Shown one piece after another: positions 1 through 4,193 of a stretch of 64,000 bases of DNA. The DNA comes from Ilumatobacter fluminis. GTDB taxonomy: Bacteria; Actinomycetota; Acidimicrobiia; Acidimicrobiales; Ilumatobacteraceae. The stretch lies in contig NZ_SOAU01000001.1 in the NCBI RefSeq assembly GCF_004364865.1, positions 2,202,001-2,266,000 on the forward strand, written 5' to 3'. Both the position numbers and the translations under genes were made by a program. How positions within the stretch are numbered: position 1 is the first letter of the stretch; each line of letters opens with the position of its first letter. The notes under the pieces were generated by a model. It did no database searches. It was not told the DNA's origin and saw only the letters and a program-made list of their open reading frames with translations.

Positions 1-1371
1 CGGGGCATCGACGACCGCGGCGCCGCCGTGGTGCTGTGGAGCCCGTTCGTCCGATTCGACGACGTCGCCGAGTTGGCGCTCAGCCGGAGCTTCCATCTGC
101 GTTCGGCGTTCCGCCCGACGTTCAACATGGTCGCCAACCTGGTGCGCACTTACGATCGCGATCGGGCCCGCCAGCTGCTCACCCTCTCGTTCGCCCAGCA
201 CCAGGCCGACCGCGACATCGTCCGCATCGAACGACGGCTGCAGCGTCAGCGCGAGCGGCTGACCGAGCTGCGCGACCAGGCGGCGAGCCCGTTCGGCGAC
301 ATCGACGAGTATCGCCGCACGCACACCGCCGACGGCACCGTGCGCGGCCCGATCGACGAGTCGCTGGCCGCACTGCGCCCGGGCGAGGTCATCCACGTCG
401 ACAAGGGCAAGCACTTCGGCCCGGCGGCGGTGGTCGCCACCGCTCACCGGTCGGGCGGCATCAAGGTCACGGTCATCACGCCGAGCGGCCACTCGATCGG
501 ACTGTCGGCCGACGACTTCGACGCTCCGGTCGATCCGATGGGCACGATCGTGCTCCCGGGTCATTACTCGCCGAACCGCAAGGACTACCGCGACGAGGTC
601 GGCAAGCGCCTGAAGCGAGCGAAGCTGCGCGGTGGCCGGCGGCGTGCCGGCACCACCGGACCCGCTCGTCATCCGGTCGAGGACGATCCCGAACTCCGGC
701 AGCGGCTCGAGGCGGCGCAACGCGCCGACAAGACCGCCGCCGAGATCGACTCGCTCGAGCAGCGGGTCGAGCAACGCAACTCCTCGCTCGGCCGTGAGTT
801 CGACGCCGTGCTCGACATCCTCGAACAACGTGGCTACGTCGACGCCGCAGCCTGGCACCTCACCGAGCGCGGCGACGCGTTGTCGAACCTGTTCCACGAG
901 TCCGATCTGCTGGTGAGCGAGGCGATGTTCGCCGGGGTGTTCGACGGGCTCGACGACGCATCGCTCGCCGGTCTCGTGTCGTGCATCGTGTACGAGCACC
1001 GGTCGCCCGACGACCCGCCTCGGCCGTGGTTCCCCAACGACGAGGTACGACGGCGGTGGGAACAGCTCGCCGAGATCAGCGACCGGTTGGCGGCCGACGA
1101 GCGCCGCCACGGCCTCTCGGAGCACCGGGCGCCCGATCCGGGCTTCCTGGCGATCGCGTACGCCTGGGTCGGCGGTGAGGGATTCGCCGACATCGTCGCC
1201 GAGGAAGACCTGACGGGCGGTGACTTCGTGCGCACCACGAAGCAGCTCGTCGACCTGCTCGGCCAGCTGGGATACGTCGCCACCGACTCCGGTACACGGT
1301 CGGCGGCGCGACGAGCGGTCGAGGCGGCTCGCCGTGGCGTCGTCGCCGACTCGTCGGTGGTCGGCCCGTGA
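1..1371 (+). CDS. helY: HelY-like Ski2-type RNA helicase, C-terminal part
   Basis: The reading frame is already open at the window edge, so only the last 456 codons are present. It starts inside the end of the helicase core (RGIDDRG, the tail of motif VI, then VVLWSPFVRF) and continues through FRPTFNMVANL, a conserved block that follows the second RecA domain in Ski2/Mtr4-type helicases. The remainder has a basic insertion and an alpha-helical end that fits a DSHCT domain (about the last 180 residues). Family members unwind RNA or structured nucleic acid with ATP; the Walker motifs would lie upstream of the window. The stop overlaps the next gene's GTG by four bases (GTGA), so the two are probably co-translated. 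Identification comes from these motifs, not a search. Confidence 0.85.
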   Translation, partial: RGIDDRGAAVVLWSPFVRFDDVAELALSRSFHLRSAFRPTFNMVANLVRTYDRDRARQLLTLSFAQHQADRDIVRIERRLQRQRERLTELRDQAASPFGDIDEYRRTHTADGTVRGPIDESLAALRPGEVIHVDKGKHFGPAAVVATAHRSGGIKVTVITPSGHSIGLSADDFDAPVDPMGTIVLPGHYSPNRKDYRDEVGKRLKRAKLRGGRRRAGTTGPARHPVEDDPELRQRLEAAQRADKTAAEIDSLEQRVEQRNSSLGREFDAVLDILEQRGYVDAAAWHLTERGDALSNLFHESDLLVSEAMFAGVFDGLDDASLAGLVSCIVYEHRSPDDPPRPWFPNDEVRRRWEQLAEISDRLAADERRHGLSEHRAPDPGFLAIAYAWVGGEGFADIVAEEDLTGGDFVRTTKQLVDLLGQLGYVATDSGTRSAARRAVEAARRGVVADSSVVGP

Positions 1372-2009: not shown

Positions 2010-3608
2010 GTGACCGTGTACGTGCCCGAGGAGTTCACCAGCGACGAGTCCGACGTCCTTCGGCGCTACTTCACGAATCTCGACGGACCGGTGTTCGCCT
2101 TGGTCAATCTGCCCGAGGTCGTCAAGGGTGCCCTGTTCGCTCGGTACAGCCGGAGCCCGAAGAGTCTGCGTCGTCTCTTCCTCGACGAGTTCGTGAACGA
2201 TCTCGTAATCGACGGCGACGAGACGATCGACGCGACGATCGGACTCGATCGGGCCGAGCAGCTGTACGAGCGGGTGTTCTTCGAGTACGGCGACGACTCC
2301 GTCGCCCAGCTCGGTGGCGTCCACCTGGCGTGCGAGCAGGCGTCGAACATCCTGACCAAGATCCTCGAGTGGGGTCGGCTGATGAGCTACCTCGAGCAGA
2401 GCACGCGCTACATCGGCTACGACGCTCGCCTCGGTGGGCGATACCGGTTCTACCGCGACCCGGCGCTCCTGTCGAGTTCGCTCGGCACGCGGTACGTCGG
2501 CGACATGGACCGCATGTTCGACGCCTACTCGACGGCGGTCAACACGGTCACCGAACACGTCCGCGACACGGTCCCGCAAGACCCCGACGACAGCGACTTC
2601 GTGTACCGGACGGCGACGCGTGCGAAAGCGCTCGATGCCGTCCGTGGCATGCTGCCCGCCGCCTCGTTGTCGAACGTCGGCATCTACGGCACGGGGCAGG
2701 CGTTCGAGGCGTTGCTCCTCCGGATGCGGTCGCACCCGCTCCCGGAGGCGCAGCAGTACGCCGATCTGATGCTCCACGAGCTCCGGAAGGTGATCCCGAG
2801 CTTCCTGCGGCGCGTCGACCTGCCCGACCGCGGTGGCCAGTGGTCCGACTACCTCGCATCGACCCGTGGTGACACGGCCGAACTCGTCGGCCGGCTGTTC
2901 GGCGAGGTGCCGAACGAATCGGTGCCGGAGGTCTCCCTGGTCGACTTCGACCCGGAGGCGGAAGACAAACTGCTCGCCGCCATCTGTTACAGCCACAGCC
3001 ACCTTCCGGAGACGGTGTTGCTCGAACGGGTCCGCAACCTCGGTGTCGACGAGCGGGCGGCGATCCTGCGCGCCTACGTCGGTGACCGAGCGAACCGACG
3101 CCACAAGCCGGGCCGGGCGTTCGAGCGGGTCGACTACCGCTTCGACATCTTGTCCGACTACGGCGCGTTCCGCGACCTCCAGCGCCACCGCATGCTCACG
3201 ATCGAATGGCAGGCGCTGACGCCGAACCACGGCTACGCCCGACCGGAGCTCGTCGAGCAGGCGGGCGTCGGCGGCCTGTTCGACGAGACGATGGATCGTT
3301 CGGCACGCCTGTACGACGACATCAAGGCGCAGTTCCCCGAGCAGGCGTCGTACGCCGTCTCGATGGCGTACCGGCTGCGGTACATGATGCAGTTCAACGC
3401 TCGCGAGGCGTTCCACCTGCTCGAGCTGCGTTCGGCCCCGCAGGGACATCCGTCGTACCGCCGTGTCGCATTGGCGATGCATCGGGCGATCGCCGAGCAG
3501 GCCGGCCACCACGCCGTCGCCGCCGCGATGACGCACATGACACACGAAGCGCCCGAGCTCGAACGGCTCGCCGCAGAACGGCGTGCCGAGTCGCGGCGCT
3601 CGATGTGA
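2010..3608 (+). CDS. tandem two-domain ThyX-like (FAD-dependent thymidylate synthase family) protein
   Basis: A 532-residue protein, about twice the size of a ThyX subunit, that reads as two ThyX-like halves. ThyX makes dTMP from dUMP with FAD and methylene-THF as a tetramer, using the motif RHRxxSxxExSxR. The N-terminal half has W121-G-R-L-M-S126-Y-L-E-Q-S-T-R133, keeping the serine and ExSxR but not the RH. The C-terminal half has R392-H-R-M-L-T-I-E-W-Q, keeping RHR but with Thr for Ser and without ExSxR. The conserved ThyX ending is recognisable (RSAPQGHPSYRRVA). GTG start at 2010. Whether it is active or has another flavin role is unknown. It stands alone, with about 65-80 bp gaps on either side. 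Confidence 0.75.
   Translation: MTVYVPEEFTSDESDVLRRYFTNLDGPVFALVNLPEVVKGALFARYSRSPKSLRRLFLDEFVNDLVIDGDETIDATIGLDRAEQLYERVFFEYGDDSVAQLGGVHLACEQASNILTKILEWGRLMSYLEQSTRYIGYDARLGGRYRFYRDPALLSSSLGTRYVGDMDRMFDAYSTAVNTVTEHVRDTVPQDPDDSDFVYRTATRAKALDAVRGMLPAASLSNVGIYGTGQAFEALLLRMRSHPLPEAQQYADLMLHELRKVIPSFLRRVDLPDRGGQWSDYLASTRGDTAELVGRLFGEVPNESVPEVSLVDFDPEAEDKLLAAICYSHSHLPETVLLERVRNLGVDERAAILRAYVGDRANRRHKPGRAFERVDYRFDILSDYGAFRDLQRHRMLTIEWQALTPNHGYARPELVEQAGVGGLFDETMDRSARLYDDIKAQFPEQASYAVSMAYRLRYMMQFNAREAFHLLELRSAPQGHPSYRRVALAMHRAIAEQAGHHAVAAAMTHMTHEAPELERLAAERRAESRRSM

Positions 3609-3689: not shown

Positions 3690-4193
<504 letters not shown>

Follow-up and report, generated by a model that had tools for sequence, protein, structure and literature searches.

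Introduction

Can a ThyX-like protein in which each of two fused halves has kept a different part of the family motif still act as a thymidylate synthase and, if so, how would its active sites be put together? The question is raised by an open reading frame with a GTG start, coding for 532 amino acids, that lies in the window examined here (a stretch of 64,000 nucleotides from the genome of Ilumatobacter fluminis). An initial reading of the letters, which we refer to as the sequence-only reading, had taken its product for a two-domain ThyX-like fusion with incomplete but complementary motifs, as if one composite site were made across the pseudo-dimer and the other had been abandoned, or else for a repurposed protein.

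Here we argue that the double protein is probably an active flavin-dependent thymidylate synthase, which would work as a dimer of two fused chains carrying two live sites and two that do not catalyse. Its activity, assembly and stoichiometry are inferred. The composite-site interpretation is supported by the sequences, by published structures and by the distribution of the gene.

Sequences compared

The alignment holds 172 double proteins including the 532-residue query, 166 of them distinct and six exact duplicates, with identities to the query down to 18%. They fall into a cellular-type group of 154 members at least 40% identical to the query (of these, cellular genomes account for 150, plasmid records for three and a viral contig for one) and a phage-like group of 18 members at 18-32% identity (two phages, three plasmid records and 13 viral contigs). 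Rows left out of the 172 were L001-L003 (further copies of the query gene's own entry), L033-L062, L064 and L187-L196 (none of them fusions), L217, and L063, which is part of a fusion taken whole as L179. The genome samples described below supplied the sequences of 49 of the 103 class fusions and of 20 fusions from the rest of the phylum. Close relatives are over-represented, since the genome-collection matches are the best 80 of 582. For comparison, 41 single-domain ThyX proteins were used, 38 from the sampled genomes and three from the PDB. The tree was built from 72 of the 73 rows below 75% identity, and its root serves for drawing only.

Two Thy1 domains in one chain

The closest homologue among those best 80 of 582 matches, 95% identical, belongs to an Ilumatobacter metagenome assembly. 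Thy1 (PF02511) is the sole Pfam family found on the protein, in two stretches totalling 116.9 bits, and in the DNA search each half exceeds the gathering cut-off of 24.8 bits separately (Table 1). The two-domain ThyX-like fusion that had been proposed is thus borne out. Membership in the NCBIfam thyX equivalog (TIGR02170) was rejected, the protein scoring 44.4 bits against a curated cut-off of 87.9, and phmmer with the whole protein against the PDB sequences gave no match at E 1.

Table 1. Features of the double ThyX-like gene, with positions in the window
Feature	Position	Strand	Evidence
Double Thy1 (ThyX-like) protein, 532 aa	2010..3608	+	Thy1 matches to both halves
N-terminal Thy1 half, residues 1-290 (boundary chosen by us)	2010..2879	+	Thy1 50.9 bits; hhalign 98.5%
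YGDDSVAQ, residues 93-100, place of ThyX H53/T55/E58	2286..2309	+	S97 kept; H53 to D and E58 to Q in the cellular clade
N-half motif, residues 121-134: RH lost (W-G); E129, S131, R133, Y134 kept, dUMP/flavin loop	2370..2411	+	Alignment
R212-GM-LP, place of ThyX R147 and LP	2643..2657	+	Arg: N-half 172/172, C-half 2/172
C-terminal Thy1 half, residues 291-532	2880..3605	+	Thy1 64.3 bits; T. maritima ThyX match, Z 16.6
RRHKPGR, residues 363-369: cellular-clade motif at the C-half H53/T55 place, putative second, non-catalytic pocket	3096..3116	+	R363, R364, P367, G368, R369 in 154/154 cellular
R392-H393-R394, complete RHR (FAD phosphates, flavin, dUMP)	3183..3191	+	Aligned in 172/172
TIEWQALTP, residues 397-405: C-half loop without motif E, S, R, Y	3198..3224	+	Alignment
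R465...R474; R474 corresponds to the uracil-binding Arg (T. maritima R174)	3402..3431	+	R474 in 172/172

From the point of view of structure, the whole chain was predicted with pLDDT 87.6 and pTM 0.87 (single chain; two alignments were used for structure, one of 32 sequences, for the whole chain, and one of 31), and in each half of the model a strand and a helix precede the motif start, and a short strand and a loop follow it. The C-half has the ThyX fold: it superposes on Thermotoga maritima ThyX (TM0449) with Z 16.6 and rmsd 2.4-2.5 Å over 191-192 residues, the T. maritima entries ranging from Z 15.6 to 16.6 and those of Mycobacterium tuberculosis and PBCV-1 from 14.1 to 15.1. Among the 50 structure matches listed, all entries are of the ThyX fold and all lie on the C-half, besides rows at Z about 5 that we took as common arrangements. 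For the N-half the case is less direct. Its profile matches that of single-domain ThyX with an hhalign probability of 98.5% (98.7% for the C-half), and the element order in the whole-chain model agrees, yet modelled by itself it reaches only pLDDT 62.7 and pTM 0.36, so that a confident fold appears only within the whole chain. Compared with each other, the profiles of the two halves match weakly (probability 17.4%, E 0.0014).

Just downstream of the double gene, at 3690-4193 (+), lies an open reading frame of 167 residues with long runs of Asp and Glu and a cysteine-containing tail, on which no Pfam family was found at E 0.001. Another, at 28-1371 (+), carries a DSHCT domain at its C-terminus and is presumably the end of a Ski2/Mtr4-like helicase beginning before the window.

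A motif divided between the halves

The motif letters are W121-G-R-L-M-S126-Y-L-E129-Q-S131-T-R133-Y134 in the N-half and R392-H-R394-M-L-T397-I-E-W400-Q-A402-L-T404 in the C-half; the letters given in the sequence-only reading were all correct when the protein was read again. Its register also fits the whole-chain model, in which the short strands 126-129 and 397-400 each start five residues past the motif start (121 and 392).

This division, called complementary in the sequence-only reading, holds across the alignment. E129, S131, R133, R212, R392, H393, R394 and R474 are identical in all 172 double proteins; Y134 is present in 171, which are also the proteins that carry E129, S131, R133 and Y134 together. 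The R, H and R of the C-half are contiguous in 158 members, and in 14 plasmid and viral-contig members (L070-L072, L153-L163) one inserted residue gives RHNR. Conversely, RH occurs in no N-half (0/172), and the C-half loop never holds two or more of E, S and R (a single S in 14 members, E or Q in two). The whole RHRx5[E/Q]xSxRY motif is found within one domain in none of the 172 double proteins, against 41 of 41 single-domain ThyX. The parts needed for at least one composite site, namely RHR, the uracil-binding Arg and the E-S-R-Y loop, are present in the double proteins, distributed over the two halves.

With eight residues identical throughout, including 18 proteins only 18-32% identical to the query, the split is not a matter of chance. 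A degraded ThyX pseudogene or a mis-joined duplicate would offer a trivial explanation, but 103 of the 148 class genomes contain a match, no internal stop occurs among the matches listed and the same split recurs in 172/172, so that such an origin is improbable to the point of being negligible and was rejected.

In the tree, the cellular-type proteins form one supported clade and the phage-like ones fall outside it, the deepest branching order being unsure because the phage-like branches are long. On the simplest reading, the motif split would predate the parting of the two groups. A cellular-type fusion 45% identical to the query lies on a 278 kb plasmid record of Parabacteroides distasonis (Bacteroidota; L069) and clusters with the viral contig L165, a grouping that suggests horizontal transfer.

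How the active sites would be assembled

The split acquires its meaning from the architecture of ThyX, whose four subunits are arranged with 222 symmetry (PMC3498832). As described for M. tuberculosis, the site is built from three subunits: subunit A gives RHR and Arg199, subunit B provides Ser71 and Arg190 as ligands of the FAD phosphates, and subunit C contributes Arg87, Ser105, Arg107 and the lid residue Tyr108 (PMC6514825). In inhibitor-bound PBCV-1 ThyX, Gln75 and Arg182 come from one monomer and Ser88/Gln89 from the other (PMC3498832).

An ordinary tetramer has four equal sites, each on three subunits: A with RHR and the uracil Arg, B with the FAD-phosphate ligands Ser/Thr and Arg, C with the Glu-Ser-Arg-Tyr loop. 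We assigned H53 and E58 to role B, an assignment of our own, H53 being placed on 'monomer-3' with no subunit letter; we likewise assume that T. maritima R147 takes part in dUMP phosphate binding, and parts of the correspondence between M. tuberculosis and T. maritima numbering are also our assumption.

Since RHR and the uracil Arg come from one subunit in the ThyX crystals and the E-S-R-Y loop from another, the division between the halves corresponds to one whole composite site. We propose that a ThyX gene was long ago duplicated in tandem and fused, and that the two halves then lost complementary parts; the resulting protein would make dTMP out of dUMP using FAD, NADPH and methylene-tetrahydrofolate. 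A dimer of fused chains would contain two N-halves and two C-halves, role A being played by a C-half at two sites and by an N-half at the other two. As each site needs three different subunits, every site in such a dimer mixes N- and C-halves; neither kind of half could form a site by itself, and consequently only a complementary loss can keep a working one. The complete RHR being confined to the C-half and the complete loop to the N-half, two of the four sites would be whole and two non-catalytic.

Which half supplies role B can be approached by counting. A pseudo-222 tetramer allows three pairings plus their three mirrors, which we scored on 14 canonical residues. In the phage-like group the role A residues (Q75, R78, H79, R80, R174) are found in the C-half in 14-18 of 18 members and in the N-half in 0-2, while those of roles B and C (H53, T55, E58, R165, R87, E86, S88, R90, Y91) are found in the N-half in 14-18 and in the C-half in 0-1. 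Phage-like representatives keep 12.8 of the 14 residues when A is taken from the C-half and B and C from the N-half (mirror 0.4), against 9.5 with A and B from the C-half (mirror 3.6) and 8.1 with A and C from the C-half (mirror 5.0).

The counts are less tidy in the cellular clade, where the first pairing scores 9.0 (mirror 4.4), A and B from the C-half 10.0 (mirror 3.4) and A and C from the C-half 5.1; A and C from the N-half give 8.4, close to 9.0 though without RH. An active synthase with roles A and B from C-halves and role C from an N-half is therefore an alternative to be taken seriously, even if we hold it to be the less likely arrangement. The higher cellular count speaks for it, as do E372 and R465, at the places of E58 and R165, kept in the C-half in 154/154 members. 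Nevertheless, the T55 place is Ser (S97) in the N-half of all 154 and Arg in their C-half, and phage-like members have H53, T55, E58 and R165 in the N-half (15-17/18), with the count of 9.5 falling short of 12.8. As read from these residue counts, it is the phage-like group that decides the pairing; the cellular clade does not.

Because the N-half of the phage-like members also holds the B residues, the live site would probably consist of one C-half and the N-halves of both chains, an arrangement that implies a dimer of fused chains in which both are needed. In this respect the earlier idea of a composite site made across one pseudo-dimer stands only in part: the halves do divide as ThyX subunit roles do, but a site on three subunits most likely requires both chains.

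Genomic distribution and function

A search for a canonical thyA or thyX elsewhere in the host genome (complete, 4.78 Mb), proposed along with the sequence-only reading, found neither: there is no ThyA match (PF00303) and no Thy1 (PF02511) match besides the two halves of the double gene. The genome likewise gave no DHFR match. It does contain a thymidine kinase-like gene (68 bits), by which thymidine salvage is possible. The double protein is probably the only de novo thymidylate synthase of the cell.

The same picture extends to related genomes. The class sample of 148 genomes includes 103 with the fusion, 12 with ThyA, 29 with single ThyX and eight with none of the three. The fusion coincides with ThyA in three genomes (interrupted in G009, weak in G059, strong in G110) and with single ThyX in one (G119, where a single-domain ThyX-like frame of 283 residues, L064, lies on a separate contig, C8), and it occurs without either in 99. 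In G110 and G009, ThyA and DHFR lie near each other on the same contig, the ThyA match of G009 being in two pieces; these co-occurrences possibly represent a replacement in progress.

In the phylum sample of 296 genomes, the fusion is found in 95, 61 of which are further genomes from other classes, next to 43 strong ThyA, 48 weak PF00303, 120 single ThyX and six weak single Thy1 matches, the sorting into strong and weak being our own. There one genome combines the fusion with strong ThyA, two combine it with weak PF00303 matches and none with single ThyX. If those 48 weak matches are disregarded, 42 of the 296 genomes have neither the fusion nor a single Thy1 nor a strong ThyA. Fisher tests of the fusion against other synthases gave 1.5e-22 and 1.3e-39 with genomes treated as independent, and since genomes are related these values overstate the exclusion, which recurs over many families.

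DHFR provides a further angle. It is found in 10 of the 148 class genomes: in eight of the 12 with ThyA, in four of the 103 with the fusion (two being counted in both) and in none of the 29 with single ThyX. The ThyX reaction leaves tetrahydrofolate (PMC6514825, PMC1971073), and most bacteria without a recognisable DHFR use ThyX (PMC1971073); the scarcity of DHFR in fusion genomes is thus as expected of ThyX chemistry. In both samples the fusion stands in place of ThyA, and in the class sample and the host genome it goes along with a lack of DHFR, as canonical ThyX does.

These data bear on the suggestion that the protein was repurposed, in which case it would bind a nucleotide or a flavin and make no dTMP, the cell living on thymidine salvage or on an unknown synthase. 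In its favor count the score under the equivalog cut-off, the changes of H53, E58 and R165 in the N-half of the cellular clade (see below) and the thymidine kinase-like gene, both in the host and in other fusion genomes (PF00265 matches occur in 75 of the 148 class genomes, 42 of them among the 103 with the fusion). However, 57 of those 103 have no ThyA, no single ThyX and no PF00265 thymidine kinase, 41 of them being at least 95% complete, the fusion nearly excludes ThyA and single ThyX, and RHR, R474 and E/S/R/Y are conserved throughout. As this gene replaces ThyA and single ThyX in genome after genome, we disfavor repurposing and consider it improbable.

A flavin-dependent pyrimidine methylase acting on another substrate, UMP or another uracil nucleotide, in the manner of the UMP/dUMP methylase PolB, would also be compatible with the fold: the ThyX-fold PolB entries 4p5a and 4p5b are among the C-half matches, at Z 14.1 and 14.9. 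But T. maritima ThyX matches better (Z 15.6 to 16.6), with the M. tuberculosis and PBCV-1 enzymes about equal (14.1 to 15.1), and the fusion sits in genomes without another recognised dTMP synthase, which leaves such a substrate change very improbable. The reading as a thymidylate synthase is the one that we retain.

The second pocket in the cellular clade

The other site had been described as abandoned. A non-catalytic reading of it is kept here, but abandonment is uncertain for the cellular clade, in which a number of the site's positions do not vary.

In the N-half of this clade (residues 95, 100 and 230), the H53 place is Asp in 154/154, E58 is Gln in 152 and Ala in two, and R165 is Gln in 154, so that the clade in effect carries H53D naturally, together with a pair of changes, E to Q and R to Q. 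This N-half also holds R80 (154/154) and an R174-like Arg (149/154), and the B residues do not segregate cleanly between the halves. According to the titles of 4kar and 4kas, T. maritima H53D mutants have given crystals with FAD, both without and together with dUMP, which indicates that Asp at this place does not forbid the binding of cofactor or substrate.

Among 45 cellular representatives, invariance at 97% or above is found at 13 of the 14 live positions, five of the 14 partner positions and 62 of 467 background positions, and among 14 phage-like representatives, at 99% or above, at 7/14, 0/14 and 18/467, respectively; the comparison of live with lost positions is partly circular, the halves having been assigned after the pattern was seen, with roles taken from the literature. 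By a rank test against the background, the lost-site positions are more conserved in the cellular clade (p 0.006) and no more conserved in the phage-like group (p 0.37).

The invariant residues of the cellular second pocket are R123, P367, R369, E372 and R465, and the place is rich in Arg, with R363 and R364 alongside. This conservation gives a hint that the pocket may be in use, although folding by itself could account for the conservation of positions that line a pocket. It is conceivable, though we consider it doubtful, that the pocket was rebuilt rather than abandoned and binds some other anionic ligand, such as a regulatory nucleotide or a folate polyglutamate. If true, the enzyme would be a ThyX whose catalytic and whose regulatory sites are divided between its two halves.

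Relation to known ThyX proteins

With the single-domain enzymes of T. maritima (TM0449), M. tuberculosis and PBCV-1, the double protein shares the Thy1 domain, present twice here, the fold of the C-half, one set of the motif residues when both halves are taken together, and the genomic role of a dTMP synthase. It differs from them in having two domains per chain with the motif divided between the halves and, as we propose, in forming a dimer of fused chains with two catalytic sites instead of four.

The duplication as such is already in print, a domain-duplicated ThyX of Chloroflexi having been noted in 2009 and called uncharacterised (Valas and Bourne, PMC3224940). The passages that mention these proteins are silent on a loss of motif residues, on divided sites and on the assembly. 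The duplication described in the sequence-only reading was in this sense already known.

Among phage proteins, the 'thymidylate synthase' of Tunturiibacter phage Tunturi_5 has both halves and the same split motif, with RHR, at 26% identity, and the model of Microcystis phage LMM01 A0A7D4 aligns with ours over 523 columns (Foldseek E 4.5e-15) at 19% identity. Unlike the cellular clade, the phage-like group mostly keeps H53, E58 and R165 in the N-half (15-16/18), and it has RHNR in 14/18. The plasmid-borne members are annotated by NCBI as 'FAD-dependent thymidylate synthase'. In a literature search that covered few subscription journals, no description of the split motif of the double ThyX was found. 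What appears to be new, beyond a known fold and a known duplication, is the complementary site, along with its conservation in both cells and phages and the way it fits a site built from three subunits.

Implications

The fusion is the sole recognised route from dUMP to dTMP in much of the class sampled (99/148 genomes). Furthermore, the fused ThyX shows how a symmetric tetramer with three-subunit sites can fuse and specialise, and it offers a way of testing the subunit roles of ThyX with single mutations made in one chain, a test not open to a homotetramer.
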